From: Haloplanus rubicundus
GTDB lineage: Archaea; Halobacteriota; Halobacteria; Halobacteriales; Haloferacaceae
Length of the DNA: 64,000 nt
Direction: 5' to 3'
Assembly (NCBI RefSeq): GCF_003342675.1
Contig: NZ_CP031148.1
Location: 3,100,001 to 3,164,000, forward strand
The notes under the pieces are model-generated. The model was not told the origin of the DNA, ran no database searches, and saw nothing but the letters and a program-made list of their open reading frames with translations. A program made the translations under genes and the position numbers. Positions 36,860 through 53,532 of this stretch are shown piece after piece (positions within the stretch are counted from its first letter, which is position 1; each line of letters opens with the position of its first letter).

Positions 36860-37108
36860 ATGACGACTCTGAAACGAACGCCGGGTCCGGCCGCGCGGAG
36901 CGCCTTCCGACTCGGTATACTGGCCGCCGGCATCGTCGGCCTCGCGGCCCTCGGCGCCGGCTATCTGGGGGGCGTCCTCACGACGACGACGGCGCTGTAC
37001 GTCCTGTTCGCGCTCTTTCCGATCTACCTCGTGTTGGTCGCGTCCGTCCTCAGCGTCTGGCTCGGCTACGACAAGGACGCGACGGACCTCCGCCCGGTGT
37101 ATCGTTAG
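36860..37108 (+). CDS. small two-helix membrane protein
   Basis: This 82-aa protein has two hydrophobic segments (about residues 16-40 and 43-68) with a basic N-terminus and a short charged tail (GYDKDATDLRPVYR). It lies 43 bases after the SMC-related gene with a TATA-like CTTATCC between them, so it may be independently transcribed. Its stop overlaps that of the convergent BCCT gene by 4 bases. No family is recognised. Confidence 0.55.
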   Translation: MTTLKRTPGPAARSAFRLGILAAGIVGLAALGAGYLGGVLTTTTALYVLFALFPIYLVLVASVLSVWLGYDKDATDLRPVYR

Positions 37109-38952
37109 TCGTCGCCCGGCGGGCCGCCGACGCGCCCGATTGCGGCCCGGACACGGCCGACGAGCGTCGAGCGGTCGCGTTCGTGTCGGCGGAACGCGAG
37201 GGTCAGGCCGACCAGCGCGACCACCGAGAGGACGGCGAAGGGGCCGCCGGTTAGGACGGCCGCGACCTGCAGCGATTCGCCGCCACCGACGAGCAACACG
37301 GCGCCGGCGACGAGACCCTGGAGGACGCCCCAGAAGACGACGCTCCCGGTGGTCGGCGCGACGCCCTGCCGGGTCGCCAGTATCGACACCACGAGCGTCG
37401 ACGTATCCGCGGACGTGACGATGAAGACGACGATGAGCGCGAGGAAGACGAAGAGGAGCAGTCGGGAGAGCGGGAGGGCGGCGAGGACCGGAAAGCCGGC
37501 AACGGCTTCGGAGCCGCCGGCGGCCTCGACGGCGGCGAGCACGTCGGCCCGGCCGGATCGCTGGAGGGCGAGGGTGGTGCCGCCGAACAGCAGGTGCCAG
37601 CAGACGGAAGCGGCCGACGTGGCGACGACGCCGGTGAAGACGACGGTCCGCACCCGGCGACCCTTCGAGAGCGCCGCGAGAAAGAGCCCGGCGAAGGGCG
37701 CCCACGAGAACCACCACGACCAGTTCCAGACCGTCCAGTTCGCGGCCCACGGTCCCGAGGTGACGAAGCTCATCGACACGAAGTCCGTCGCGTAGCGGCC
37801 GAGGGCGGCGGCGCCGGCGTCGAGGACGAACCCGCGGGGGCCAACGACGAGAAGCAGGAGGGCAAAGAGGACAAAGAGGACGAGGTTGACGCCGGCGATG
37901 CGGCGGATGCCCCGCTGGACGCCGCTCTCCGCGGAGACGCTGTAGATGACGACGAGACCGGCGACGAAGAGGAGGGCGCCGGAGCCGCCGACGGCGACGC
38001 CCCACTGGAAGGTGATGCCGGCGAGGAACTGCTGGCCGACGAACGCGACGGAGGTGGCGATGCCGCCGATGGTGGCGAAGATGGCCAGCACGTCGACGAA
38101 TTTCGCGAGCGGACCGTCCAACCGGTCGACGCCGAGGAAGGGCGTGAGAATCGTCGAGACGCGGAGCGGCGCGCCGTGCTGGTGGGTGTAGTAGGCGATG
38201 GGGAGACCGACGACGAGGTAGGCACACCACGCCGACACCCCCCAGTGAAAGCTCGCGTAGGTGAGCGCGACGACGGCGGCGGCGGCGGAGCGGGGGGCAG
38301 CGCCCGAGCCGGGCGGGGGCGCTCCGTAGTGAAAGAGCGACTCGGCCGGCCCCCAGAAGACGATGCCGGCGGCGATGCCGGCGGTGAAGACCATCGCGAA
38401 GTACGTCGGGTAGGTGTAGTCCGGTTCGGCGTCGGGACCGCCGAGCGTGATCGACCCCCACGGGCCGACCAGGAGGAAGAGAGCGTAGACGACGGCGAGA
38501 AACATGGCGCCGAGGAAGAGCCAGTCGAACTGCCGGAAGAGGACGCGCTGGGCCGCCGTGACGGCCGCGCCAGTTCGGGCGGGGGCGAGGAGGCGGGCGG
38601 CGAAGAAGCCGCCGAGGACGGCGACGGGCACGCCGAAGGTGACGGGGTCCTGTCGGGCGAGGAAGCCACCGACCCAGTTTCGCCACGAGAGGTGCCGGAC
38701 CCGGAGGAGATACGGCGCCCCTGGCTGTGAGTCGTCGGCGTCGGGTCGCTTCACGGGGAGGAGCGCGAGGTAGGCGAGCCCAGTGCCGAAAAAGAGAAGC
38801 GAGAGGACGAGCCATCCACGGCCGGAGACGACGGAGCCGACGATGGCGGGGAAAAAGAAGCCGGAGACGACGACGACGCCGGAGAGCACACACACGGGGA
38901 GGAGCGCGGAACGAGCGAGCCGCTCCAGCACGGCCGTGGCGTGTGAGGCCAT
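37105..38952 (-). CDS. BCCT-family transporter, atypical
   Basis: This 615-aa carrier of the betaine/carnitine/choline family has 12 transmembrane helices and the Trp-rich segment WSWWFSWAPFAGLFLAALSKGR split across helix 8. The helix-3 substrate/Na+ loop reads AGIAAGIVFW rather than the GMGIG typical of glycine-betaine carriers, so the substrate probably differs (choline, carnitine or another quaternary amine). The ATG at 38952 begins MASHATAV; an in-frame ATG at 38979 is an alternative. It is divergent from a potassium-channel gene. Confidence 0.85.
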   Translation of the reverse strand: MASHATAVLERLARSALLPVCVLSGVVVVSGFFFPAIVGSVVSGRGWLVLSLLFFGTGLAYLALLPVKRPDADDSQPGAPYLLRVRHLSWRNWVGGFLARQDPVTFGVPVAVLGGFFAARLLAPARTGAAVTAAQRVLFRQFDWLFLGAMFLAVVYALFLLVGPWGSITLGGPDAEPDYTYPTYFAMVFTAGIAAGIVFWGPAESLFHYGAPPPGSGAAPRSAAAAVVALTYASFHWGVSAWCAYLVVGLPIAYYTHQHGAPLRVSTILTPFLGVDRLDGPLAKFVDVLAIFATIGGIATSVAFVGQQFLAGITFQWGVAVGGSGALLFVAGLVVIYSVSAESGVQRGIRRIAGVNLVLFVLFALLLLVVGPRGFVLDAGAAALGRYATDFVSMSFVTSGPWAANWTVWNWSWWFSWAPFAGLFLAALSKGRRVRTVVFTGVVATSAASVCWHLLFGGTTLALQRSGRADVLAAVEAAGGSEAVAGFPVLAALPLSRLLLFVFLALIVVFIVTSADTSTLVVSILATRQGVAPTTGSVVFWGVLQGLVAGAVLLVGGGESLQVAAVLTGGPFAVLSVVALVGLTLAFRRHERDRSTLVGRVRAAIGRVGGPPGDD

Positions 38953-39030
38953 GGCATACGTGTCGGTGGGCGGAAACATAGGTGTGTCGTCGGGGGCTTC
39001 TTTTTGTCGCTGCCGCGCGAACTGGTCGCC

Positions 39031-40260
39031 GTGGCGACCGATCCCCCCGAGACGCCGGGAGATACGGCGCTCGACGAGCTGTTCCACCAGCCCGAGCAGG
39101 TACCGCTGGTCTACTGGCGGACGTTCTCCGGACCGAAGACGGCCGTCCTGCTGACGGGAGCGACGGCCGTCTTCGCCTTCGTCGCCGGGCTCTCCCACCT
39201 GAGCCAGGGCGGCGTCACGCCGACCGGGCCGTTCGCGGGCGCGCTCCCGCCCGGCGCGTCGGACGCGATACCGCTCGCGAGCATCGTCGTCGGCTTCCTG
39301 CTCGCGGGGGTCGCGGTCGGGTTACGGAGTCGCTACCGACTCGCCTGGTACGGCGTGTTGGGCGGTGTGGCGGTCCTGCTCGGCATCCCGCTGGTGACGG
39401 GGGCGGCGAGCGACGCGGTGCCCGCGCTGGTCGGGGTGGCGGGGGCGACGCTGGCGGTGGCGAAGCGGTCGGGCTTCGACCGTCGAGTCGAGTTGACCGC
39501 GTTCCAGACGACGGCGCTGCTCGCGTTCGTCGGGGTCCAGGTGTACGGCACCGTCGGCACCTACGCCATGCGCGAGCACTTCGTCGGCGTCGACACGGTG
39601 ACCGACGCGTTCTACTACATCGTCGTGACGGGAACGACGGTCGGCTACGGCGACGCGACGCCGACGACGCAGGTGACGAAACTGTTCACGCTCTCGATAA
39701 TCGTCCTCGGGACGGGGGCCTTCACCGTCGCCACGGGCTCTTTGATCGTGCCCGTCCTCGAATCCCGCATCTCCAGCGCCTTCGGAACCATGACAGCCTC
39801 GGAACTCACACTGCTCGACGATCACGTACTGGTCCTCGGGAGCGGCGAACTGACCGAACCGCTCCTCGACGAACTCGAAGCGACGACGGACGTGGTGGTC
39901 GTGACGCCTGACGCCGACGCGGCGTCGGCACTCGACGAACGCGACGTGAACGTGTTGACCGCCGATCCGACCGACGAGGGACCGCTGCTCGACGCCCGTA
40001 TCGACGCCGCACGGGGGGTCGTCGTGGCGACGGACGACGACGCGCGGGACGCCCTCGCCGTGGTCGCCGCCCGGCAGGCCAACCCCGACGTGCGTATCGT
40101 CGCCGCGGCGACCGACCAGAAACACGCCGACAAACTGGAGGCCGTCGGCGCCGACGCGGTCATCAGCCCGGCGGTCATCGGCGGGCGACTCCTCGGCCGG
40201 TCGGTCCTCGGTGAGGCGGACGCGCTCGGCGGACTGGGCGACGACGGGGACGACGCCTGA
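39031..40260 (+). CDS. two-TM potassium channel with TrkA-N domain
   Basis: The 409-aa protein has four to five N-terminal hydrophobic segments (about residues 36-135), then a pore unit with filter TTVGYGDATP (near residue 205). A TrkA-N/RCK-like Rossmann domain follows from about residue 260 (HVLVLGSGELTEPLLDEL, VVVVTPDADAASAL, GVVVATDDD). The dinucleotide loop is GSGELT, not the strict GxGxxG. K+ flux gated by a nucleotide or Ca2+ is inferred. The GTG at 39031 was preferred; an in-frame TTG nine codons upstream is possible. Confidence 0.85.
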   Translation: MATDPPETPGDTALDELFHQPEQVPLVYWRTFSGPKTAVLLTGATAVFAFVAGLSHLSQGGVTPTGPFAGALPPGASDAIPLASIVVGFLLAGVAVGLRSRYRLAWYGVLGGVAVLLGIPLVTGAASDAVPALVGVAGATLAVAKRSGFDRRVELTAFQTTALLAFVGVQVYGTVGTYAMREHFVGVDTVTDAFYYIVVTGTTVGYGDATPTTQVTKLFTLSIIVLGTGAFTVATGSLIVPVLESRISSAFGTMTASELTLLDDHVLVLGSGELTEPLLDELEATTDVVVVTPDADAASALDERDVNVLTADPTDEGPLLDARIDAARGVVVATDDDARDALAVVAARQANPDVRIVAAATDQKHADKLEAVGADAVISPAVIGGRLLGRSVLGEADALGGLGDDGDDA

Positions 40261-40316
40261 CCGCCCCCAAGTTATTTGCTCCAGTCAGGAGAACGACCGG
40301 TAAGGGACGGAGAGCC

Positions 40317-40757
40317 ATGTACGATACGATTCTAATCCCGTTCGACGGTAGCGACGAGGCGATGAAAGGAGCCAAGCACGGTATCGAGCTCGCGGCGACG
40401 TGTGATGCGACGGTACACGCGCTCTACGTCGTCGACCTCCCGGGTGCACCACGAACGGTGTATCTCAGGGACGACGAGGACGAGATGCGCGAGCGGTACC
40501 GCGAGTACGGCGAGGAAGTGACGGACGACGTCTGCGAGATGGCGGCCGAGGAGGGGGTCGAGTGTGTCACCGCGCTCCGGAGCGGGTCGCCGGGCGAGGA
40601 GATCGTCGACTACGCCAAAGACGAGGGGATGGACGCCATCGTCCTCGGGAGCGCGTATCGGGGGAAGTGGGGCGCACTCCTCGGGAGCACGGCGGAGAAG
40701 GTGGTCCGAACCGCCGAGTCCCCGGTCGTCACGGTGCGGGAGAAGATGAACGACTGA
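40317..40757 (+). CDS. universal stress protein (UspA family)
   Basis: This 146-aa single-domain Usp has the N-terminal DTILIPFDGSDEA strand-loop and the C-terminal nucleotide-binding pattern (VLGSAYRGKWGALLGSTAEK, then SPVVTV). The Gly-x2-Gly-x8-9-Gly-Ser spacing resembles ATP-binding members. It is a cytoplasmic stress or metabolic regulator of unspecified target. It lies 56 bases after the potassium-channel gene and may be partly co-transcribed with it. Confidence 0.92.
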   Translation: MYDTILIPFDGSDEAMKGAKHGIELAATCDATVHALYVVDLPGAPRTVYLRDDEDEMRERYREYGEEVTDDVCEMAAEEGVECVTALRSGSPGEEIVDYAKDEGMDAIVLGSAYRGKWGALLGSTAEKVVRTAESPVVTVREKMND

Positions 40758-42242: not shown

Positions 42243-43994
42243 TCAGTCGCTGCTGGCCGCGTCGTCGCCTTCCCTGACGTCGGTCACCATCTCGTTGCCC
42301 GCCGTCACCACGTCGACGTTCTCGCGGTCCGAGAGCTCCTGAATGGTTTCGGCGAACTCCTCGGATTCGAGGATTTCGTACTCGTTGCTGAGTCCGAGAT
42401 AGACGGTGTAACACATCAGACAGAGGATGACGGCGAAGGGGAGACCGGTCGTGATCGCTGCCGTCTGCAGGGCGGTGAGGCCACCACCGTAGAGCAGGAT
42501 GGCGGCGACGGCGCCCTCGGTGACCGCCCAGAAGATACGCTGGGCACGCGGCACGTCGTGTTTGCCGCCGGAGGTCAGGTGGTCGATGACGAGCGACCCG
42601 GAGTCGGAGGACGTGACGAAGAAAGTGATCACCAGGAGCGTCGCGAGGATGCCCGAAATCGCCCCGAGCGGGAACTGTTCGAGCATGGCGAACATGGCGA
42701 CCGTCTGTCCGAGTTCGTTGTAAGTCGCGAGCGCCGCGCCGTTACCCTGCAGCGAGTTGAACAGGGCGCTGCCGCCGAAGGCGGACAGCCAGATGGTGGA
42801 GAACATCGCCGGAAGGACCAGAACGCCCATGACGAACTGGCGGATGGTCCGGCCCTTCGAGATGCGGGCGATGAACATCCCGACGAACGGTGACCACGCG
42901 ATCCACCAGCCCCAGTAGAAGACGGTCCAGGCGGTGACCGTCGATCCACCATCGGCGAGCGTCCCGCGGAAGAAGCCGAGCGCGAGGATGTTGTTGAAGT
43001 AGACGCCGAGCCCTTCGACCCACGTACCCAGGATGAACACCGTCGGCCCCACGATCATGAGGAAACCGAGCAGTGCGAACATCAGGTAGAGGTTGATGGT
43101 ACTCAGGCGCTTGACCCCACCGTCGAGGCCGGCCGCGACCGAGAGCGTGGCGATGCCGGTGATGCCCGCGATGAGCAGTGTCTGCACGAGGGGGTTCGTC
43201 GGAACGGAGACCAAGCCGAGGAGGTCGCCGCCGACGTAGGAGAGCCCCTGATTCACCTGTGACACGCCGAGACCGAGCGAGGTGGCGAGCCCGAACAGCG
43301 TGGCGAACACCGTCACGAGGTCGATGACGTGCCCCGGCCAGCCGTAGATGCGGTCGCCGAGCAGGGGCCAGAAGATCGACCGGAAGGTGAGCGGCAGGCC
43401 ACGGTTGAACGAGAAAAAGGCGAGGCCGAGGCCGACGAGGCCGTAGACGGCCCACGGGTGGAAGCCCCAGTGGAAGAACGTCTGGGCCATGGCCGCCGAC
43501 GCCGCTGCCCCGGTTTCGGCCTCGGCGCCGAAGAAGCCGGGGACGTTCTGGAAGTAGTACAGCGGTTCGGAGACGCTGAAGAACATGAGGCCGATCCCCA
43601 TGCCGGCGCTGAACAGCATCGCCATCCAGGAGAAGTCGCTGAACTCCTTTTCGGCCTCCACGCCGCCGATCTTGATCTTGCCGTACTTGCTGAACGCGAA
43701 AAAGAGGAGGACGACGATGAAGATGTTCACCGACAGCAGGTAGAACCAGCCGAAGTTCTCGCCGATGAAGTTGAATAGGAACGTGTACGCCGCGGCTGCC
43801 TGGTCACCGAGCAGGATCGTGACGGCGATGAACAGGCCGATGAGAACCAGGGCCACGGGGAAGACGACCGGATGGATGTCGAAGCCGAGTGCTTGGATGT
43901 TGGTGTCGCCGGGTTCGCGGTCTGACTCGGGGTGGAACAGTTCTACCTGCAGCCCCTCGGACATCTCTCCAGTCGTGTCGTCTGATTTAGCCAT
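42243..43994 (-). CDS. BCCT-family glycine betaine transporter
   Basis: This 583-aa carrier has 12 transmembrane helices and the full betaine signature: AGMGIGLMFFSVSEP in helix 3 and the Trp box (WGWWIAWSPFVGMFIARISKGR) in helix 8. The GMGIG loop is the feature of Na+-coupled glycine-betaine carriers such as BetP and OpuD. An acidic C-terminal tail (~60 residues) could sense osmotic state. It is third in line after the two dimethylglycine-dehydrogenase-type genes on the minus strand, which ties uptake to catabolism. The 222-base gap upstream may hold its own promoter. Confidence 0.92.
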   Translation of the reverse strand: MAKSDDTTGEMSEGLQVELFHPESDREPGDTNIQALGFDIHPVVFPVALVLIGLFIAVTILLGDQAAAAYTFLFNFIGENFGWFYLLSVNIFIVVLLFFAFSKYGKIKIGGVEAEKEFSDFSWMAMLFSAGMGIGLMFFSVSEPLYYFQNVPGFFGAEAETGAAASAAMAQTFFHWGFHPWAVYGLVGLGLAFFSFNRGLPLTFRSIFWPLLGDRIYGWPGHVIDLVTVFATLFGLATSLGLGVSQVNQGLSYVGGDLLGLVSVPTNPLVQTLLIAGITGIATLSVAAGLDGGVKRLSTINLYLMFALLGFLMIVGPTVFILGTWVEGLGVYFNNILALGFFRGTLADGGSTVTAWTVFYWGWWIAWSPFVGMFIARISKGRTIRQFVMGVLVLPAMFSTIWLSAFGGSALFNSLQGNGAALATYNELGQTVAMFAMLEQFPLGAISGILATLLVITFFVTSSDSGSLVIDHLTSGGKHDVPRAQRIFWAVTEGAVAAILLYGGGLTALQTAAITTGLPFAVILCLMCYTVYLGLSNEYEILESEEFAETIQELSDRENVDVVTAGNEMVTDVREGDDAASSD

Positions 43995-44216
43995 ATCGCT
44001 CCTCCGTCCGGTGCGTGCCGGTCGTGTGTTGTCGGTGGATCATGTGCGTGTCTTCGGATGTCGGTCGTCGGTCTGTGCGTCGCCCGTGCGCCGGCCCTCC
44101 GGCGAGCGCCGAACTACCATGGTCATGGATAGCCGCACCCATGGCAGAGAGCCACATAGAAACTACTCGTTGTGTCAGATAAAGTTTGGCGTTTTTCTCG
44201 AAGAAATTCGGGCCGA

Positions 44217-46757
44217 TTACCGAAGGATCTTCGAGCGGCCAGGGTCGAACAGTGGTTCGTCGCGGACGGTAGCGTCGTAGGTCGTTCCCTCACACAGCAC
44301 CTGGACCGAGGTGCCCGCGTCCGCGTACTCGCTGGGGAGGTACGCGTAGGCGATGGACTCGCCGAGGCTGTAGCCGTAGTCGCCGGCGACGACGTAGCCG
44401 AGCGCCTCGTCCCCGTCCAGGACGGGCCGCCCGCCGAAGATCACGTCCGTCGAGTCGTCGAGCGTGATCGGGGTGAGCCGGCTGTCCGGCTGTCTCTCGG
44501 CCAGCGCCTCCCGGCCGACGAAGTCGGTGTCCATGTCGACGGCGAAGCCGAGCCCGGCCGAGAAGGGGTCGGCGTCGGTGTCGATGTCGGTCCCCCAGAG
44601 CCGGTAGCCCTTCTCCAGGCGCATCGACTCCAGCGCGCCGCCGCCCATCGGCCGCACGTCGAGGTCCTGACCCGCCTCCCACAGCGTCTCCCAGAGACGC
44701 GAGCCGTACTCCGTCGGCGCCCACAGTTCCCAGCCGAGTTCGCCGACGTAGGAGACACGCAGAGCGAGGACGGGCACCTCGCCTACGTAGATTCGCTTCG
44801 CGCTGAAGTAGGGGAAGTCCTCGGCGGAGACGTCCGCGTCGGTGACCCGCTGGAGCAGGAGCCGGGACTTCGGCCCCCACAGCCCGACCGTGGATCGGGC
44901 GCCCTCCTCGACGGTGACCGACACCGTCTCCGGGGCGTGAGACTGGAGCCAGCCGCCGTGGATGCCCGGCGAGTTGCCGCCGCCGGTCGTCACGACGAAC
45001 TCCTCGGGACCGAGGCGGACGACGGTCACGTCCGCCAGCACGTTCCCGCCCTCGTTACAGAGCAGGGAGTACCGGACCCGCCCCTCGTCGATATCCACGT
45101 CGTTGGTGCACACCCGCTGGAGGAAGTCCGCGGCGCCCGCACCGGAGACGACGATGGAACTGAACGAGGTCATGTCGAACATCGACACGTGCTCGCGGGT
45201 GTGGAGGTGTTCGGCGCCCTCGATGGGCGAGCGGTTGACCCCCTGCCACCCCTCCTGCTCGGGAATCTCGTCGGCGTAGCGCTCCACGAGGTCGGCGTTC
45301 GACTCGTACCACTGCGGCGCCTCCCAGCCGCCGGACTGGTAGAACTCGGCGCCGAGTTCCGCCTGCTGGGCGTAGAACGGGCTCCGTCGGAGGCCGCGGT
45401 GGTCGTCGGGCTGCCAGCGCGGTTCGACGATGCTGTACACCTGCCGGTACTGCGTTGCCCCCCGGTCGACGAAGTAGCCTTTCTCGCCGGCGTGGGGTTC
45501 GAACCGGTTCACGTGGATGCCGCCGGTTTCGACGGGGCCGGACGGGAGCTTTGGGACACCCGTCTCCATCCACTCCGCGAGGATCTTGCCGTAGCCGCCG
45601 GAGTGCGTCCACCAGATGGCGAGGGCGGTCCACAGGTCGTCGACCGCCGCCGTCTCGCCGAGGACCGGCATCCCGTCGGGCGTGAACACGAAGATGCCGT
45701 TCTCGGTGGCCTCGAACTCCGTGCCCTCGGAGACGGGGAGGAGTTCCTCGAACGCCCGCTTGGGCGATTTGTCGCGGTCGGGGTGGGTCGCGCGCTCCCA
45801 GTGCTCGTCGGTGAACTCGCGGACCGACGCCTGCCGGCGCTCCGTGTTCGCCCCCATCGCGTCGGGGTCGACCGTCAGCGACTCGTGGTTGTACGAGCCG
45901 AGGCCGATGGCGTCGCCGTGGGTGCGGAAGTAGAGGGAGTTGTCCTGGTCGCGGCCGACCGGCCGGGTCGGGCCGCGGCTCATGGCGTCGGCGATGCGGT
46001 GGTCGCCGGGCACCTCGAAGTCGCCCGTGTCGACGCGGGCCGTCGGCTCCGCGCCGGCCAGTTCGTCCAGTGGCTCCGTGACGGCGTACTGGTGTTCGAC
46101 GGGCGCGATGGGCAGGTCGAGACCGGCGAGTTTGCCCGTCTTGTACCCCCAGTTGTTCGTCGCGAGGACACAGCGGTCGCAGTCGATGCGGCCGCGGTCC
46201 GTCTCGACTGCGGTGATCGAACCGCCGCTCACGTCGAAGTCGGTGACCGACGTGTGGCCGTAGAAGTCCGCGTCCGACTGCTGGATGTACCACTGGAGGG
46301 CGGCGATGCCGTCGACCCGGCCGTCGGTCGGCGAGTAGTAGCCGCCCAGAATCTCGTCTTCGTTCACCAGCGGCAGGTAGTCGGTAACCTCCGCGGGCGA
46401 GAGGAGTTGCGGGTCGGGCAACCCGTAGGCGGTGGCGTGTTCGACCCGCCGTTGCAGGAAGTCCATCCGCTCCTCGCTACGGGCCACCTCGATGCCGCCC
46501 ACCTCGTCGTAGACGCCGGCGTCGGAGAGGAGGCGGCTGGTGTAGTGGGCCGTCTTCGTCATGAGCTTCGACGGCGACGTCTGGAACATGATGCCCGGCG
46601 CGTGCGTCGACGATCCACCGGTCACGGGAAGGGGTCCCTGGTCGACGACGACGACGTCCTCGGCGCCGAGTTCCGAGAGGTGGTAGGCGACGCTACAGCC
46701 GACGGCGCCGGCGCCGACGATGACCGTCTCGGCCGTGTCGGGAAGCGTTCCACTCAT
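44217..46757 (-). CDS. dimethylglycine/sarcosine dehydrogenase-type FAD-GcvT fusion, paralogue 2
   Basis: This 846-aa protein has an N-terminal DAO-type FAD domain (VIVGAGAVGCSVAYHL, residues ~10-420) and C-terminal GcvT folate-binding domains (~430-846). His52 (SSTHAPG) aligns with the His that links FAD covalently in dimethylglycine dehydrogenase. The folate half shows TSFSSIVVSGAGAADFLQRV and GYRLWGTDID. Such enzymes oxidatively demethylate dimethylglycine or sarcosine and capture the methyl as methylene-THF. Start and stop abut the upstream paralogue (TAGATG). The exact substrate, dimethylglycine or sarcosine, cannot be read. Confidence 0.88.
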   Translation of the reverse strand: MSGTLPDTAETVIVGAGAVGCSVAYHLSELGAEDVVVVDQGPLPVTGGSSTHAPGIMFQTSPSKLMTKTAHYTSRLLSDAGVYDEVGGIEVARSEERMDFLQRRVEHATAYGLPDPQLLSPAEVTDYLPLVNEDEILGGYYSPTDGRVDGIAALQWYIQQSDADFYGHTSVTDFDVSGGSITAVETDRGRIDCDRCVLATNNWGYKTGKLAGLDLPIAPVEHQYAVTEPLDELAGAEPTARVDTGDFEVPGDHRIADAMSRGPTRPVGRDQDNSLYFRTHGDAIGLGSYNHESLTVDPDAMGANTERRQASVREFTDEHWERATHPDRDKSPKRAFEELLPVSEGTEFEATENGIFVFTPDGMPVLGETAAVDDLWTALAIWWTHSGGYGKILAEWMETGVPKLPSGPVETGGIHVNRFEPHAGEKGYFVDRGATQYRQVYSIVEPRWQPDDHRGLRRSPFYAQQAELGAEFYQSGGWEAPQWYESNADLVERYADEIPEQEGWQGVNRSPIEGAEHLHTREHVSMFDMTSFSSIVVSGAGAADFLQRVCTNDVDIDEGRVRYSLLCNEGGNVLADVTVVRLGPEEFVVTTGGGNSPGIHGGWLQSHAPETVSVTVEEGARSTVGLWGPKSRLLLQRVTDADVSAEDFPYFSAKRIYVGEVPVLALRVSYVGELGWELWAPTEYGSRLWETLWEAGQDLDVRPMGGGALESMRLEKGYRLWGTDIDTDADPFSAGLGFAVDMDTDFVGREALAERQPDSRLTPITLDDSTDVIFGGRPVLDGDEALGYVVAGDYGYSLGESIAYAYLPSEYADAGTSVQVLCEGTTYDATVRDEPLFDPGRSKILR

Positions 46758-49337
46758 CTAGATCAGTGGCTCCTCTTCGACGGTCGCGGCGTACTTCTCG
46801 CCCTCGTACAGAATCTCCACGTCGGTGCCCGGCTCCGCGAACTCCGGTGGGAGGTAGGTGTACGCGACGCAGGCGCCGACCGAGTAGCCGTACTCGGCGG
46901 AGTGGACGTAGCCGATGGCCTCGTCGGTTTCGGGGTCCAACACCGGCCGGTCGGCGAGAATCGCCGCCTCGGGGTCGTCGAGCGTGAGGCAGGCGACTTC
47001 GTGGCGGACGTTGTCGCCGGCGGCGGCCGCCGCGACGGCCTCTTTCCCGACGAAGTCGGTGTCGAGGTCGACGGCGAAGCCGAGACCGGCCTCGTAGGGG
47101 TTGTGCTCGGTGTGGAGGTCCTCACCCCACAGCCGGAACCCCTTCTCGATGCGCAGGGAGTCGAGCGCGCCGTTGCCGTAGGGGCGGATGTCGTACTCCG
47201 CGCCCGCCTCCATGACGTGCTCCCAGAGCGTCTCGCCGTACTCGGAGGGGGTGTAGAGTTCCCAGCCGAGTTCGCCCGCGTAGGACACCCGCAGGGCGGT
47301 CACCGGGACGTTCTTCACGTAGAACTGCTGGCTCGTGAAGTACGGGAACGCGTCGTCCGAGAGGTCGGCGTCGGCGACTTTCGAGAGCACCTTCCGCGCG
47401 TCCGGGCCGGTACAGACCATCGCCGCCAGGGAGGAGGTCACGTCGTTGACGACGACGCCCTCCGGCGCCTGTTCGCGCACCCACGCGACGTGGTTGTTTC
47501 CGACTTCGCGGCCCGTCGTGAGCAGGAGGTAACGGTCGTCGTCGGTCCGCGTCACCGTGATGTCGGCGCGGACGCCGCCCGCCTCGTTACACATCAGGGT
47601 GTACCGGACCTGCCCGACGTCGAGATCCATGTCGTTCGTACAGAGCCGCTGGACGAACGCGTCGGCGTCGGGGCCGACCACCTCCATCTTGTTGAACGCG
47701 GTCATGTCGTGGAGGCCGACGTGTTCGCGGACGTGGAGATGTTCGGCCGCCTCGATTGGCGACCAGTACTTCGCCTCCCAGCCGTCTCGATCGGGGATTC
47801 GATCCTCGTATCGCTCCACGAGGTCGGCGTTGGACTCGAACCACTGGGGCTCCTCCCAGCCGGCGGAGGCCCAGAGTTCGGCGTCACGACGCTCGTGGGC
47901 GTGGTACATCGGCGTACGCCGGATGTCGCGCTGTTTGCCCTCCCAGACCCACTTCGGATGCACGATGTTGTAGACGATGCGGTACTCCTCGCCGCCGATG
48001 TCGCGGGTGAAGTCCCACGACCCCTCGTGGGCGTCGAAGCGGTTCACGTCGCAGTGCGCGAGGTCGATGGGACCGTCGGGCAGTTTCGGCATCCCCGTCT
48101 CCATCCACTCCGCGAGCGCCTTGGCCGCGCCGCCGGCGTGGGTGATCCAGATGGCCGAGGCGACCCACAGGCCAGCCGTCCCCTGCACCGGCCCCATGAT
48201 CGGGAGGCCGTTCGGCGACTCGGCGAACATCCCGTTGTACTTGAACTCCAGCTCCTTGTCCTTCGTCGCGGGAATGAGTTCGTCGCTCGCGGTTCGCGGG
48301 GCCTTGTCCGGGCGGTCCGGATGCGTCGCCTCGTTCATGAACCGCTCGGAGAAGTCGTGGACCGACGCCTGGTTGCCGTCTGGGTCGTTCCCGCCCAAGT
48401 CGTCCGGGGCCGGGACGACCGGCTCGTGGTTGTACGAGCCGATGCCGTAGGAGTCGCCGTGGGTCCGGTAGTACATCGCGTTGTCCTGGTCGCGCAGGAT
48501 GGGACGGTCCGGGTTGGCGAGTAGCCGTTTCGCCTTCTCGCCGGAGACGTTCTCGTAGCCCTCGAAGAGGGGGTGGTCGGTCACGTCCTGTGCGTTGTCG
48601 GCGAGTTCGTCGAGCGACTCGGTCATCGTGTACTGGTGCTCGACGGGGGCGACCGGCAGGTGGACGTCGAGTTTCTCGCCCAACTGCCGCGCCCAGATGT
48701 TCGTCGCGACGACCACCTCGTCACAGGCGACGGTGCCGTTCTCGGTGACGACGGCCTGCACGTCGCCGTTCTCGTCGAGTTCGATGTCCTCGGTCCGGGT
48801 GTGCGGGACGAACTCGGCGCCGCCGTCCATCGCCCGCCGGGCCAGGGCGTCACAGGCGACGACGCCCGACGCCTGTCCGTCGGTCGGGGAGTAGTACCCC
48901 CCGAGGATGCGGTCCGAATCGACGAGCGGCAGGTGGTCGGTCACCTCCTCCGGGGTGAGCAGTTGTGGGTCCTCGAGTCCCCACGCGGTCGCGTGTTCGA
49001 CCCGTCGCTGGAGGAAGTCCATGCGCTCCTCGGTCCGGGCCACCTCGATGCCGCCGACTTCCTTGTACGCCTGCTGGCCGTCCCGGCCTTCGAGCTCGGA
49101 GTAGAGCTGTCGGCTGTAGTTCGCGAACTTCGAGAGGACCTTCGGCTCGGCCGTCTGGAACATGATGCCGGGCGCGTGCGTGGAGGACCCGCCGGTCGTC
49201 GGCATCGGTCCCTGATCGACGACCACTACGTCGTCCCGTCCCAACTCGGTGAGCTGATACGCGAGGTTGCACCCGACGATACCGGCCCCGACGATGACGG
49301 TGCCGGCGTCGCTCGGAAGTGTGTTCCTATCACTCAT
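46758..49337 (-). CDS. dimethylglycine/sarcosine dehydrogenase-type FAD-GcvT fusion, paralogue 1
   Basis: The 859-aa product has the same layout as its neighbour: FAD domain with VIVGAGIVGCNLAYQL and probable flavin-linking His54 (SSTHAPG), then the GcvT-type folate domains (TAFNKMEVVGPDADAFVQRL, GFRLWGEDLH). It is the promoter-proximal gene of the minus-strand operon. GATTATAAGG lies 24-33 bases before the ATG, fitting a leaderless transcript. The two paralogues probably act in sequence on dimethylglycine and sarcosine. The ATG at 49337 gives the clean FAD N-terminus; an in-frame start 17 codons upstream overlaps promoter sequence. Confidence 0.88.
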   Translation of the reverse strand: MSDRNTLPSDAGTVIVGAGIVGCNLAYQLTELGRDDVVVVDQGPMPTTGGSSTHAPGIMFQTAEPKVLSKFANYSRQLYSELEGRDGQQAYKEVGGIEVARTEERMDFLQRRVEHATAWGLEDPQLLTPEEVTDHLPLVDSDRILGGYYSPTDGQASGVVACDALARRAMDGGAEFVPHTRTEDIELDENGDVQAVVTENGTVACDEVVVATNIWARQLGEKLDVHLPVAPVEHQYTMTESLDELADNAQDVTDHPLFEGYENVSGEKAKRLLANPDRPILRDQDNAMYYRTHGDSYGIGSYNHEPVVPAPDDLGGNDPDGNQASVHDFSERFMNEATHPDRPDKAPRTASDELIPATKDKELEFKYNGMFAESPNGLPIMGPVQGTAGLWVASAIWITHAGGAAKALAEWMETGMPKLPDGPIDLAHCDVNRFDAHEGSWDFTRDIGGEEYRIVYNIVHPKWVWEGKQRDIRRTPMYHAHERRDAELWASAGWEEPQWFESNADLVERYEDRIPDRDGWEAKYWSPIEAAEHLHVREHVGLHDMTAFNKMEVVGPDADAFVQRLCTNDMDLDVGQVRYTLMCNEAGGVRADITVTRTDDDRYLLLTTGREVGNNHVAWVREQAPEGVVVNDVTSSLAAMVCTGPDARKVLSKVADADLSDDAFPYFTSQQFYVKNVPVTALRVSYAGELGWELYTPSEYGETLWEHVMEAGAEYDIRPYGNGALDSLRIEKGFRLWGEDLHTEHNPYEAGLGFAVDLDTDFVGKEAVAAAAAGDNVRHEVACLTLDDPEAAILADRPVLDPETDEAIGYVHSAEYGYSVGACVAYTYLPPEFAEPGTDVEILYEGEKYAATVEEEPLI

Positions 49338-49382
49338 ACTGAAAGGGTTCGACCCCGGCGCCTTATAATCACACCTCAGCGA

Positions 49383-49412
49383 CGACACCCATTTATATAC
49401 CGGAGGGTGTCG
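49383..49412. promoter_or_regulatory. 30-bp palindrome 1 enclosing TATA-like core
   Basis: Arms CGACACCC and GGGTGTCG are perfect complements separated by 14 bases containing TTTATATA. It lies between the divergent dehydrogenase operon and the DmdA-like gene, about 45 bases upstream of the dehydrogenase start. A regulator dimer bound here would cover the central TATA-like core. Its centre is 40 bp from that of palindrome 2. Confidence 0.6.
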
Positions 49413-49422
49413 GGTCGGTCAC

Positions 49423-49452
49423 GCTCTTAACAGCGATATACGTGTTAAGAGC
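49423..49452. promoter_or_regulatory. 30-bp palindrome 2, GCTCTTAACA-N10-TGTTAAGAGC
   Basis: Perfect 10-bp arms flank a 10-base AT-rich centre (GCGATATACG). It is the same overall length as palindrome 1 and lies 40 bp from it centre to centre, about four helical turns, so both would face the same side of the DNA. The likely TATA box of the plus-strand genes (TTTATA, 49488-49493) is downstream, so this site could act on both divergent operons. Confidence 0.6.
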
Positions 49453-49548
49453 TGCCGGTCGGCATCCGGCACCGTCGCCGGCGCCCCTTTATACGTCCGA
49501 GATAGCTGTGGTTCACCCTTATGCAGAGGGGGACCGTTGTCGTGATCG

Positions 49549-50934
49549 ATGACGAACAACGAATCCCAGACGCTCGACGCACATCCGAACCACCCGGAGG
49601 TCGATCAGTCGGATCGCGTACTGCCGCGGAACCTGCGCCAGACCGGCGATCCGGGCATCGAGATGCTCGTCTCGACGCGTGTCCGAAAGTCACCGTTCTT
49701 CGACAAGTCGTTCAACGAGGAAGGCGCGTGGCGCTGCACCGTCTACAACCGCGTCTACCACCCGCGCGGCCTCGTCGAACCCGAGGACGGCGGTGCGATG
49801 AAGGAGTACGAAGCGCTGACCGAGAGCGTGACGCTGTGGGACGTGGCCGTGGAGCGCCAGATTCGCGTGAAAGGCCCGGACGCGGAGGCGCTTACGGACT
49901 ATCTGATCACGCGTGACGCGACGAGCATCGAGACGATGAAAGGCAAGTACGTCATCCTCTGTAACGAGGACGGCGGCATCCTCAACGACCCGGTCCTCCT
50001 GCGCGTCGCGGAAGACGAGTTCTGGTTCTCCATCTCGGACTCGACGCTGATGCAGTGGATCCAGGGCGTCAACGTCGGCATGGACTTCGACGTGGAGGTC
50101 GACGAAATCGACGTGGCCCCGATGCAGATTCAGGGGCCGCTCTCGGAGGACGTGATGGTCGAAGTCGTCGGCGAGGAAGTGTCCGAAATCCCGTACTACG
50201 GCCTCATGGACACGCAGATCAACGGCTGTGACGTGTTGGTGAGTCAGACCGGCTTCTCCGGCGAGAAGGGCTTCGAAGTCTACGTCAAGGACGCGAGCGA
50301 GAACGCCGAACGCGTCTGGGACCCGGTGATGGAGGAGGTCAAGGCCCACGGCGGCCGACAGATCGCCCCCGGTCACCACCGTCGCATCGCGGCCGGCATC
50401 CTCTCGTGGGGCCAGGACATGGACCACGAAACCTCGCCGTTCCAGGTCAACCTCGGCTACCAGGTGCCCGACGACAAGGAGGGCGACTACATCGGCAAGG
50501 ATGAACTGGAGCGCCAGAAGGAACTGATCGAGAACGGCGAGTATCCGTTCAACCTCAAACTCGTGGGCCTGAAGATCGCGGGCGAGCCGATCCGCGACTA
50601 CGCGCCCGACTTCTGGATCATCTCCGATCCCGAGACGGGCAAGGAGTGTGGCTACATGACCTCGCCGTGGTGGAACCCGGAGCTGGAGACGAACATCGGT
50701 CTCGGATTCGTGCCCGCCGAGAAGCTGGAGGCCGAGACGGACGCCCTGCTCAACGACGAAATCTACGAGCACGACCTCGATCTCGAGTTCGAGGTCCACC
50801 TCCCCGAGGAGTACGCGGAGGGTGACGGCGAACCGGCGTTCGCGACGGTAGCCGAGGTGCCCTTCAAGGAGTCGGTGAATCCGAGCGCTCGCGAGCAGGC
50901 GAAGCTGAACGCCCGGAAGGAGAGCGAGGAGTAA
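49549..50934 (+). CDS. DmdA/GcvT-like tetrahydrofolate methyltransferase
   Basis: This 461-aa GcvT-fold protein resembles DMSP demethylase DmdA more than glycine-cleavage GcvT. Shared patches include CTVYNRVYHPRGL, TLWDVAVERQIRVKGPDA, EDGGILNDPVLLRV, VAPMQIQGP, SGEKGFEVYVKD and IAAGILSWGQDM. DmdA moves a methyl from a sulfonium betaine to THF, giving 5-methyl-THF. In this locus the substrate may be glycine betaine, its structural analogue, yielding dimethylglycine for the divergent dehydrogenases. The metF gene 52 bases downstream would re-oxidise methyl-THF. Substrate assignment is inference; DMSP is the alternative. Confidence 0.75.
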   Translation: MTNNESQTLDAHPNHPEVDQSDRVLPRNLRQTGDPGIEMLVSTRVRKSPFFDKSFNEEGAWRCTVYNRVYHPRGLVEPEDGGAMKEYEALTESVTLWDVAVERQIRVKGPDAEALTDYLITRDATSIETMKGKYVILCNEDGGILNDPVLLRVAEDEFWFSISDSTLMQWIQGVNVGMDFDVEVDEIDVAPMQIQGPLSEDVMVEVVGEEVSEIPYYGLMDTQINGCDVLVSQTGFSGEKGFEVYVKDASENAERVWDPVMEEVKAHGGRQIAPGHHRRIAAGILSWGQDMDHETSPFQVNLGYQVPDDKEGDYIGKDELERQKELIENGEYPFNLKLVGLKIAGEPIRDYAPDFWIISDPETGKECGYMTSPWWNPELETNIGLGFVPAEKLEAETDALLNDEIYEHDLDLEFEVHLPEEYAEGDGEPAFATVAEVPFKESVNPSAREQAKLNARKESEE

Positions 50935-50986
50935 CTCCGGGAAGCGTTATCCGCCGCCAGTCCGTAGGACAACCGTCACCCCCCTC

Positions 50987-51841
50987 ATGTCACTCTCGAA
51001 ATCGAAATCCACCGACGGCGCACCGAGTCTGCTCGCGGAACCACGCTTCGAGCTGATGCCGTTCGACAGCTTCGAAGGGCAGATGGAACAGCTACCCGAG
51101 GGTGCCGAAATCGCCATTACGGCGTCGCCACAGCTCGGGCTCGACGCAACCGTCGAGTGGAGCGAGAAGTCGGCCGCGCGCGGCTACACCCCGATCCCCC
51201 ACGTCGCGGCCCGGTACGTCCGCGACAGGGAGCATCTCGACGAAATCGCGACCCGACTCACCGAGGCGGGTGTCACCGACATTTTCGTCCCCGGTGGCGA
51301 CCGTGAGGACCCAGTCGGCGAGTTCGAGTCCGCGTACGACCTCCTCGTCGCGCTCGACGACCTGGGTCACGAGTTCGACGAGGTGGGCATCACCGGCTAC
51401 CCCGAGGGCCACGACTTCCTCGACGACCGCACGCTCGCCGAGGCGATGGAGCGGAAGGCGCCGTACGCGACGTACATCACGACCCAACTCTGTTACGATC
51501 CCGAGGCCGTCCTCGAGTGGATCGAGACGATCCGCGACCGCGGGGTCGACCTCCCCATCGAAGTGGGGATTCCGGGCGTGATGAAGTATCAGCGCCTGCT
51601 CTCCATCTCCCAGAAGGTCGGCGTCGGCGACTCGATCAACTTCCTGCGGAAGACCAGCGGCATCGTCGGGTTCGTGCGCCAACTCGTCGGCTCGCGCGGG
51701 AAGTACACCCCCGACGCTCTCGTCGACGGCCTCGCGCCGTACGTCGACGATCCCGACTACGGCATCCGCGGCATCCACATCTACACCTTCAACCAGACGG
51801 CCGACACCGAGGCGTGGCGGCGCGAGCGGCTAGACGGCTAG
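50987..51841 (+). CDS. metF: methylenetetrahydrofolate reductase-like protein
   Basis: The 284-aa protein has the TIM-barrel pattern of MetF-type enzymes: ELMPFDSF (Glu in the early strand), TASPQLGLDATVEWSEK, TPIPHVAARYVRD, FVPGGDRED, GITGYPEGHDF, YITTQLCYD, VEVGIPG-type strand and GIHIYTFNQ at the end. MetF interconverts methylene- and methyl-THF using FAD. Next to the DmdA-like gene it most likely runs in the oxidative direction during methyl-group catabolism, as proposed for DMSP users. The promoter lies before the DmdA-like gene. Confidence 0.88.
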   Translation: MSLSKSKSTDGAPSLLAEPRFELMPFDSFEGQMEQLPEGAEIAITASPQLGLDATVEWSEKSAARGYTPIPHVAARYVRDREHLDEIATRLTEAGVTDIFVPGGDREDPVGEFESAYDLLVALDDLGHEFDEVGITGYPEGHDFLDDRTLAEAMERKAPYATYITTQLCYDPEAVLEWIETIRDRGVDLPIEVGIPGVMKYQRLLSISQKVGVGDSINFLRKTSGIVGFVRQLVGSRGKYTPDALVDGLAPYVDDPDYGIRGIHIYTFNQTADTEAWRRERLDG

Positions 51842-52369: not shown

Positions 52370-52888
52370 GGCGTTTATACGCTGAACAGGCGCAATACCA
52401 CGACCTTCAGGCCGTGGATACGCGCCGTCACTCAGTGCCACATTCCCTCGACGAATTGCATAGTTGAGTTTCCACTCCGTACTTTCAAGCGTCAAGAACC
52501 GCTATGCGATGGTACGGTCAGGTCGGAACGGAGCGGATTCCGAACGACCTTCGGAGGCGGCCTGCCCGCCCTCGTAACGAGGCAGTATCCAAAAGACAGG
52601 CGGTGAACGCCGTATTCCAGAAGAGTACGGTCGTGTGTCGCCTGTTTCAGCACGCCCACGATACCTCCAAGTCTCGTGACGCCGACTCGGCGTTCGCCGG
52701 GCAAAAACAACCACGAACGCCGACGACGCCGAGGATAGGAGTAACAGCCGCTTGGCACGGCTAGACAGCCACCGACCACGATGACTGGGTTAGATGCGGA
52801 CTCCCGTAAAGTGGCGGCGTCCATGGTTGCAGACCTGAAACTCCCACCGCTCGGGATTCCTCCGCCTTCAGGCGGAGGAGGATGTCAA
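52370..52888. mobile_element. deleted IS200/IS605-type element
   Basis: This ~520-bp stretch has no convincing gene. Its left end holds a subterminal hairpin, CCACGACC-TTCA-GGCCGTGG (52398-52417), and its right end CCTCCGCC-TTCA-GGCGGAGG (52859-52878) followed by AGGATGTCAA. Unequal hairpins with TTCA loops and a GGATGTCAA right edge recall haloarchaeal IS200/IS605 and IS1341 elements. The tnpA and tnpB genes are absent, so only a non-autonomous remnant remains. The right edge overlaps the stop codon of the Bat-type regulator gene. The IS match is from memory of end structure. Confidence 0.55.
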
Positions 52889-53532
52889 GACTCGTCGATC
52901 AGCGTCCGCTCGATGAGCCGGGAGGTTCCCCTGCGGATGCGGCCGCCGACGGCAGTCGGGGAGATGCCGAGGTCCTCGGCGAGCGCCTGGAGCGAGGTAC
53001 CGCGGGGTTCCTCGAAGTACCCGGCCTCGTAGGCGGTCACGAGGGCGTCGCGCTGGGCGTCGGTGAGGCCGATGCGGTCGTCGACGGAGAACTGATCGAG
53101 CGAGTAGATGTGGCCGAGTTCGAACTCGATGTCCTCACGGTCGCAGTGCTCCCAGAGTGTGCCGAGCGTCTCGCGGTCGGGGAGTTGCATCCGCACGGAC
53201 CAGCCGCGGGTCGTACTCTCGGCTTCGAGCATGAGCCCGCCGATTTCCGTCGTCGTCGGCGAGATGAGCTTCGTCCCCTCCGTGTGTCGGAGCCGGTAGA
53301 TGCGCGTCGTCGACGCCTCGGCGACGAGCAACGACTCCGCGACGGTGTGGTCGCGTTCGAGGGCGGCCTCGAACGCCGGAAACGAGTCGGTTTCGACGAG
53401 AAAGAAGAACATCCCCGTCTCCGGATCGGTCGCGGTGTGAGAGACCACCTGCACGTCTGCATCGGTCGACTCGATGGTCGGCGTCAGGGCGAGGTCGGGG
53501 TGTGCGAGCTCGACGACGGCGATGAGGCTCAT
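52885..53532 (-). CDS. Bat-type HTH transcriptional regulator
   Basis: The 215-aa protein has an N-terminal GAF/Bat-like sensor half (residues ~1-150) and a C-terminal HTH_10 domain (LTDAQRDALVTAYEAGYFEEP, then TSLQALAEDLGISPTAVGGRI). This is the haloarchaeal bacterio-opsin-activator layout. The target is unknown; it lies next to the betaine-degradation island and could control it, or the divergent SDR gene. Its stop codon falls in the right edge of the IS remnant, so the last codons may have been altered by the insertion. Confidence 0.88.
   Translation of the reverse strand: MSLIAVVELAHPDLALTPTIESTDADVQVVSHTATDPETGMFFFLVETDSFPAFEAALERDHTVAESLLVAEASTTRIYRLRHTEGTKLISPTTTEIGGLMLEAESTTRGWSVRMQLPDRETLGTLWEHCDREDIEFELGHIYSLDQFSVDDRIGLTDAQRDALVTAYEAGYFEEPRGTSLQALAEDLGISPTAVGGRIRRGTSRLIERTLIDES

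Follow-up and report, generated by a model that had tools for sequence, protein, structure and literature searches.

A DmdA-like protein family as the probable glycine betaine:tetrahydrofolate methyltransferase of haloarchaea and marine bacteria

Few osmolytes in seawater and brines are as abundant as glycine betaine, and its first demethylation is known to be carried out by a Rieske monooxygenase, by betaine-homocysteine methyltransferase (BHMT) or by corrinoid methyltransferases. Transfer of a methyl group to folate is known from DmdA, the dimethylsulfoniopropionate (DMSP):tetrahydrofolate (THF) methyltransferase (3TFH; SAR11_0246 of P. ubique). We analyzed a window of 64,000 nucleotides, part of the chromosome of the haloarchaeon Haloplanus rubicundus (G000:C2:3100001-3164000), in which the protein encoded at 49549-50934 has the fold, the folate residues and the NDP and WxSxxD motifs in common with DmdA, and methyl transfer to THF is its expected chemistry. 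The gene lies on the same strand as metF, with 52 bases between the two, and both are divergent from a pair of dimethylglycine oxidase (DMGO)-type genes and a gene for a BCCT-family carrier. A preliminary description of the locus had proposed a folate route in which the DmdA-like protein performs step 1 and MetF recycles methyl-THF. That proposal is supported by the lack of any other first-step enzyme in the host, by full co-occurrence with MetF and DMGO, by near-complementarity with Rieske proteins and by bacterial gene runs. These observations suggest that 49549-50934 probably encodes a glycine betaine:THF N-methyltransferase. With somewhat less assurance, we propose that the whole family, which extends over haloarchaea, SAR11, SAR86, marine alpha- and gammaproteobacteria, Actinomycetota and Gemmatimonadota and whose hosts include numerous abundant bacteria of sea and soil, comprises direct, O2- and cobalamin-independent glycine betaine:THF methyltransferases, that it includes SAR11_1265, and that the metF gene beside SAR11_1265 acts oxidatively.

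The GcvT fold was evident from a match to PF01571 (GCV_T; 147 bits) and from conservation of D147, equivalent to catalytic D96 of T. maritima GcvT, and of the folate glutamate E243. The best match by sequence in the PDB was DmdA (3tfh; E = 1e-43), and identity to Roseobacter DmdA was about 33%, whereas similarity to LigM/DesA was just 34-51 bits. For an AlphaFold2 model (pLDDT 81.5, pTM 0.81), the top match was DmdA (TM 0.92 by target length), followed by T-protein, with TM values of 0.90-0.92. However, the protein scored only 244.6 bits against the NCBIfam DMSP demethylase model, for which the equivalog cut-off is 410. It also fell below the GcvT equivalog cut-off (131.7 against 235.85 bits) and is not linked to gcvH or gcvP; the host's own GcvT is encoded elsewhere (L009:7859-8959), adjoining a GcvH-like ORF. 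In a maximum-likelihood tree of 45 rows, the family formed a clade of 32 rows on a long stem (support 100/100), separate from bona fide DmdA, which formed another group (100/99), and from GcvT. As the deep joins are uncertain owing to long branches, we used only the separateness of the clade. The phylogeny and the model score place the protein, called a "DmdA-like enzyme" in the preliminary description, in a family distinct from DmdA. Clade members from haloarchaea, SAR11, SAR86, Actinomycetota and Gemmatimonadota were 52-68% identical, and the haloarchaeal ones were nested among those of bacteria, which suggests that haloarchaea acquired the gene from bacteria. In the alignment, the DmdA hallmarks N67, W97, R122, N146-D147-P148, W159, S161, D164, E243 and Y245 are retained, and W197 of P. 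ubique DmdA is replaced by F236. We take W197 to be the DMSP-specific W171 of PMC7487153 after renumbering, and the pocket residues named here rest on that paper and our alignment.

Single-family searches were run over the whole host genome, which is 99.95% complete. No Rieske oxygenase alpha subunit (PF00848), no S-methyltransferase of the BHMT type (PF02574) and no MttB-family protein (PF06253) was found in it, so 49549-50934 is the only candidate found there for the first demethylation of betaine. The preliminary description had remarked on the lack of a Rieske (GbcA) or BHMT gene in the island, and this extends to the entire genome. Its term "self-contained" was too strong: formate-THF ligase, two FolD proteins and serine hydroxymethyltransferase (SHMT; L098) are encoded on the chromosome outside the island, so that the genome as a whole, and not the island, covers all steps from methyl-THF to formate and serine. 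In some other haloarchaea the rest of this one-carbon pathway is encoded within the island itself.

In order to place the gene in a wider context, we analyzed 194 haloarchaeal genomes, calling the DmdA-like protein at more than 800 bits. It was present in 40. Methylenetetrahydrofolate reductase (MTHFR) was present in 41, comprising all 40 with the DmdA-like protein and one of the 154 without it (p = 7.8e-41; genus level, p = 2.5e-13), and was missing from the other 153. A DMGO-type protein occurred in 40/40 genomes with the DmdA-like protein and in 20 others (p = 8e-27). These tests ignore the tree, but the pattern recurs across 23 genera, and within several genera the DmdA-like gene and metF were gained or lost together; the association with MetF and DMGO is far beyond chance. 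A GbcA-related Rieske protein was found in 28 of the 194 genomes; we call it GbcA-like, as scores to NF058607 were 132-142 bits, under the cut-off. Among the 60 DMGO genomes, 32 had the DmdA-like protein only, 19 the Rieske protein only, 8 both and 1 neither (Fisher p = 1.8e-8; genus level, p = 0.009), indicating one downstream module fed by either first-step candidate.

Some further features of these genomes were recorded. The lone haloarchaeon with MetF and without the DmdA-like protein (L101, G057) has metF adjoining folP, pabB, pabA and folD, as if a one-carbon (C1) island had lost its methyltransferase. MttB-family corrinoid-type methyltransferases (PF06253) were detected in G001, G007, G017, G061, G063 and G098, all six of which carry the DmdA-like gene, and some lie near the island. 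Tandem GbcA-like Rieske genes stand beside a haloarchaeal DMGO gene at L065 (1986-2996 and 3664-4797) and at L066, L061, L068 and L072. Of each pair in L065 and L066, one copy appears to be without the Rieske cluster region (ARDGE/ARDGA for CAHRG) and retains a nearly identical C-terminal catalytic domain.

The neighboring MetF scored above the PF02219 gathering score of 24 and is the only MTHFR of the host genome. Its best PDB match was a short MTHFR (7xg9/7xlf; E = 3e-31), with the next MTHFR structure at 9e-12. We take 7xg9 to be the enzyme of Sphingobium SYK-6. According to a review (PMC13001107), the MTHFR of SYK-6 works preferentially in the direction of methyl-THF oxidation and has coevolved with a demethylase that depends on THF. 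The MetF of the window is proposed to oxidize 5-methyl-THF to 5,10-methylene-THF.

Haloarchaeal neighborhoods fit such a role. The island of Haladaptatus salinisoli, in which no Rieske gene was seen, contains genes for FolD, PabB, PabA, RidA, formate dehydrogenase, Fhs, FolP, the DmdA-like protein, GlyA, MetF, two DMGO proteins, a threonine/serine dehydratase and a BCCT carrier. That of Salinigranum marinum is similar, with the DmdA-like gene among those for MetF, FolD, Fhs, FolP, PabAB, two DMGO proteins and a serine/threonine dehydratase. Haloarcula hispanica also carries the DmdA-like gene. In the part of Anderson et al. (2011, PMC3102087) available to us, haloarchaeal DMGO genes near BCCT genes are taken to suggest use of betaine, dimethylglycine or sarcosine, and the DmdA-like gene is not named. 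A literature search on haloarchaeal growth on betaine yielded nothing decisive. For Natronococcus sp. A-GB1 (L111), the strain name offers no more than a hint.

The gene is not peculiar to this island, as one scan of bacterial and archaeal genomes returned more than 580 relatives. The best 80 of these include proteins of SAR86, Pelagibacteraceae (SAR11), Marinobacter, Halomonas, Enterovibrio, Arthrobacter, Brevibacterium and Gemmatimonadota, at 51-66% identity. MetF was the immediate neighbor in 42/68 bacterial loci, several of them on short contigs. Single-cell genomes of marine alphaproteobacteria carry a one-strand run of soxB-soxD-soxA-(173 aa)-DMGO-metF-gene, where SoxB (671 bits) is above its cut-off and the DMGO best matches 1pj5 (E = 1e-220), and a gammaproteobacterial metagenome-assembled genome has the order gene-metF-DMGO-soxB-soxD-soxA. 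These runs link sarcosine oxidation and dimethylglycine oxidation to the DmdA-like/MetF pair. In Oceanospirillaceae, Marinobacter and Geminicoccaceae, gene-metF-fhs adjoins a gene of the GbdR type, a regulator of betaine catabolism (508 bits against a cut-off of 480 in Oceanospirillaceae). SAR86 has BCCT-dimethylglycine dehydrogenase (DMGDH)-gene, and SAR11 loci read OpuAC-ProW-metF-gene; Rieske neighbors in SAR11 scored about 120-130 bits to GbcA (cut-off 670), similar to the haloarchaeal Rieske proteins.

Sun et al. (2011, PMC3160333) described SAR11_1265, which adjoins metF, as a close relative of DmdA and as an aminomethyltransferase whose substrate is unknown, and showed that SAR11 oxidizes betaine methyl groups. 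Under sulfur limitation bhmT was up, and metF and SAR11_1265 transcripts co-varied and were down in later samples (PMC5069961), which fits a pair regulated separately from BhmT. Judging from its arrangement and kinship, SAR11_1265 is probably a member of the family.

Other DmdA relatives were also observed. The host encodes a paralogue (L007:8459-9856; G000:C2:420473-421816) of 68% identity with no MetF or DMGO gene nearby; together with proteins of Natronococcus and Halalkalirubrum it forms a separate clade (100/100), and it perhaps acts on another methylated substrate. A Lichenihabitans plasmid relative (L084:7016-8167; 36%), clustered with genes for MetF, PurU, FolD, a FAD oxidoreductase and an ABC transporter, is a probable further THF-dependent demethylase. 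Roseobacter plasmid relatives (L081:7971-9113 and L082:7974-9113; 37-38%), adjoining genes for OsmC, enoyl-CoA hydratase and acyl-CoA synthetase and separate from bona fide DmdA, possibly belong to another sulfonium or betaine pathway.

In the pathway that we infer, betaine would enter via the BCCT carrier, and the DmdA-like enzyme would move a methyl group from the quaternary nitrogen to N5 of THF, yielding dimethylglycine and 5-methyl-THF without O2, a corrinoid or free formaldehyde. MetF, working in the oxidative direction, would convert methyl-THF to methylene-THF. The two DMGO-type proteins would take dimethylglycine to sarcosine and glycine, each loading THF with another methylene group, and SHMT, FolD and formate-THF ligase, whose genes lie outside the island, would lead to serine and formate. 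The sequences show which genes are present, their families, the fold, the absences from the genome, the co-occurrence and the neighborhoods; from these we infer the substrate, the direction of the reactions, the order in which the DMGO enzymes act and the regulation. If true, direct methyl transfer to folate would require no O2 and no cobalamin, release no formaldehyde and retain the reducing power of the methyl group. It would also give haloarchaea without Rieske enzymes a possible way to use betaine, would account for the occurrence of haloarchaeal MTHFR almost only alongside the DmdA-like gene, and would assign a role to the orphan SAR11 gene beside metF. The preliminary description knew of no glycine betaine:THF methyltransferase in this family, and we likewise found no paper in the open-access literature assigning or describing this activity, although closed or unpublished work and preprints were beyond the search and an earlier description is possible.

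Several observations weigh against this assignment. Eight of the 40 haloarchaea with the DmdA-like gene also hold a GbcA-like Rieske enzyme, so strict mutual exclusion was rejected, and in these genomes the first step would be redundant or the substrate different. Haloarcula marismortui has both in a single cluster (dihydrofolate reductase, DmdA-like gene, metF, DMGO, Rieske gene, DMGO, ilvA), and one organism can thus hold both routes. In a single genome (G053), a DMGO-type gene is accompanied by neither first-step gene. Among 33 bacterial genomes checked via their loci, a set including Halomonas and Marinobacter, four had canonical GbcA above the cut-off, so redundancy exists there as well. 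SAR11 also has BhmT (PMC3160333), and OpuAC-type carriers take DMSP too (PMC5069961). Betaine reportedly did not enhance the growth of Haloquadratum walsbyi (PMC3102087), which would bear on the assignment if that species carries the gene. The structural model is of only moderate quality. The Phe-for-Trp exchange was rejected as proof of a non-DMSP substrate; it is too weak, as Roseobacter DmdA has Tyr at this position.

The foremost alternative, which we regard as improbable, is that 49549-50934 encodes a DMSP demethylase or another DMSP-breakdown enzyme and that the DMGO genes treat dimethylglycine and sarcosine independently. DmdA is the closest characterized family by both sequence and fold, but the 244.6 of 410 bits and the long-stemmed separate clade speak against identity with it. 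A role in DMSP degradation, with removal of a methyl group, was speculated for SAR11_1265 (Sun et al. 2011, PMC3160333), and DMSP can be imported by BCCT and OpuA carriers; however, the partners that recur are DMGO or DMGDH, Sox, GbdR, GlyA and MetF. Some Roseobacter relatives (37%) do adjoin acyl-CoA synthetase and enoyl-CoA hydratase genes, which fits DMSP breakdown, whereas a complete run of the DmdB/C/D type was not recognized in haloarchaeal or most bacterial neighborhoods, with single weak DmdB- or DmdD-like matches in some SAR11 loci. This alternative would also leave the complementarity with the GbcA-like enzyme unexplained.

It is similarly doubtful, and to our minds no likelier, that the protein uses THF to demethylate some other quaternary ammonium compound (proline betaine, a carnitine-type compound, choline or similar) whose product enters the dimethylglycine/sarcosine pathway. 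The paralogue clade in some of the same genomes, a gamma-butyrobetaine-dioxygenase-like neighbor gene in Gemmatimonadota and the Lichenihabitans relative, whose neighbors include MetF, purU and an amino-acid ABC transporter, are in its favor, but the enzymes recurring across distant hosts are those of dimethylglycine and sarcosine oxidation, the two steps after betaine, together with C1-folate genes, betaine carriers and GbdR. A reverse sense, with MetF making methyl-THF for methionine synthesis or for methylation of an unknown acceptor by the DmdA-like protein, is very unlikely even though MTHFR is classically biosynthetic and otherwise missing from haloarchaea, because its absence from 153/194 of them implies that it is not generally needed there, the islands look catabolic, with formate dehydrogenase and serine dehydratase, and transfer of a methyl group from methyl-THF to a tertiary amine should be unfavorable on general chemical grounds.

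Glycine betaine remains our preferred substrate, and the remaining features of the locus are listed below. The five ORFs and families reported for 42243-51841 were confirmed in coordinates, strands and domain content.

Features of the betaine-type island and its surroundings
Feature	Position	Strand	Remarks
BCCT-family betaine-type carrier	42243..43994	-	PF02028 602 bits; GMGIG motif at residue 131
DMGO-B, FAD (DAO)-FAO_M-GcvT fusion, dimethylglycine/sarcosine oxidase type	44217..46757	-	
DMGO-A, FAD-GcvT fusion, dimethylglycine oxidase type	46758..49388	-	probable true start 49337
Perfect inverted repeat, candidate operator, divergent promoter region	49423..49452	.	
DmdA-like GcvT-fold protein, proposed glycine betaine:THF methyltransferase	49549..50934	+	
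Short MetF/MTHFR	50987..51841	+	PF02219 49.8 bits
Bat/HTH_10 helix-turn-helix regulator	52885..53532	-	PF04967 + PF15915

The BCCT carrier scored 521.7 bits against the glycine betaine BCCT model NF047988, under the cut-off of 650, and is 75% identical to that of the Haladaptatus island. The tandem DMGO proteins are 51% identical to each other, both contain the motif GGSSTHAPG, and both have DAO, FAO_M, GCV_T and GCV_T_C in a single chain, as in FAD-GcvT dimethylglycine/sarcosine oxidases and dehydrogenases. DMGO-A best matches A. globiformis dimethylglycine oxidase (1pj5; E = 5.7e-171), and its probable start is where the alignment with a homologue begins; DMGO-B shares 76% identity with the second DMGO protein of L089. 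At 37105-40757 the window has a second, divergent BCCT carrier, adjoined by a TrkA-type potassium channel and by a universal stress protein; some related genomes retain this arrangement near the DmdA-like island.

Between the divergent genes lies the perfect 10-10-10 inverted repeat GCTCTTAACA-N10-TGTTAAGAGC, the single match to this pattern in the whole window, with 0 expected. In the form TTAACA-N-TGTTAA it recurs with at most one change in two genomes of the same genus and is degenerate in a third, making it a candidate operator. The Bat/HTH_10 protein may regulate the island; it is 41% identical to the regulator with which the Haladaptatus betaine island ends. Next to MetF or AstE, these haloarchaeal islands encode a conserved protein (L083:14676-15875 and equivalents) that belongs to no known family, has the shared motif VRRYMI and is possibly also a regulator.

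Compared with known systems, GbcAB Rieske betaine monooxygenase, BHMT and the MtgB/MttB corrinoid methyltransferases are alternative first steps, non-homologous to 49549-50934 and of families absent from the host genome. Arthrobacter globiformis dimethylglycine oxidase (1PJ5) has the same architecture as both FAD-GcvT fusions of the window, which would serve steps 2 and 3 of betaine demethylation and not step 1. The DmdA-like protein differs from DmdA in its identity of about 33%, its separate clade, its N- and C-terminal extensions (HPN..VDQSDR..LRQ), the replacement of P. ubique W197 by F and R194 by Q, and neighbors that are linked to betaine and not to DMSP. Several of the accessions listed elsewhere for "non-DmdA" homologues are presumably haloarchaeal and Halomonas proteins. 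These homologues, which include a clade with F at W171 (Hernandez et al. 2020, PMC7487153), are probably the present clade, having the same Trp-to-Phe change; they were assigned no activity and a DMGDH-like predicted structure, and a text search of that paper found no mention of glycine betaine. SAR11_1265 (PMC3160333), a DmdA relative adjoining metF, has the arrangement seen in SAR11 members of our family. A parallel to the proposed pairing is the O-demethylase LigM/DesA with MetF in Sphingobium SYK-6, where a THF-dependent demethylase is likewise coupled to an oxidative MTHFR, although the substrates there are aromatic ethers, unlike the betaine proposed here.

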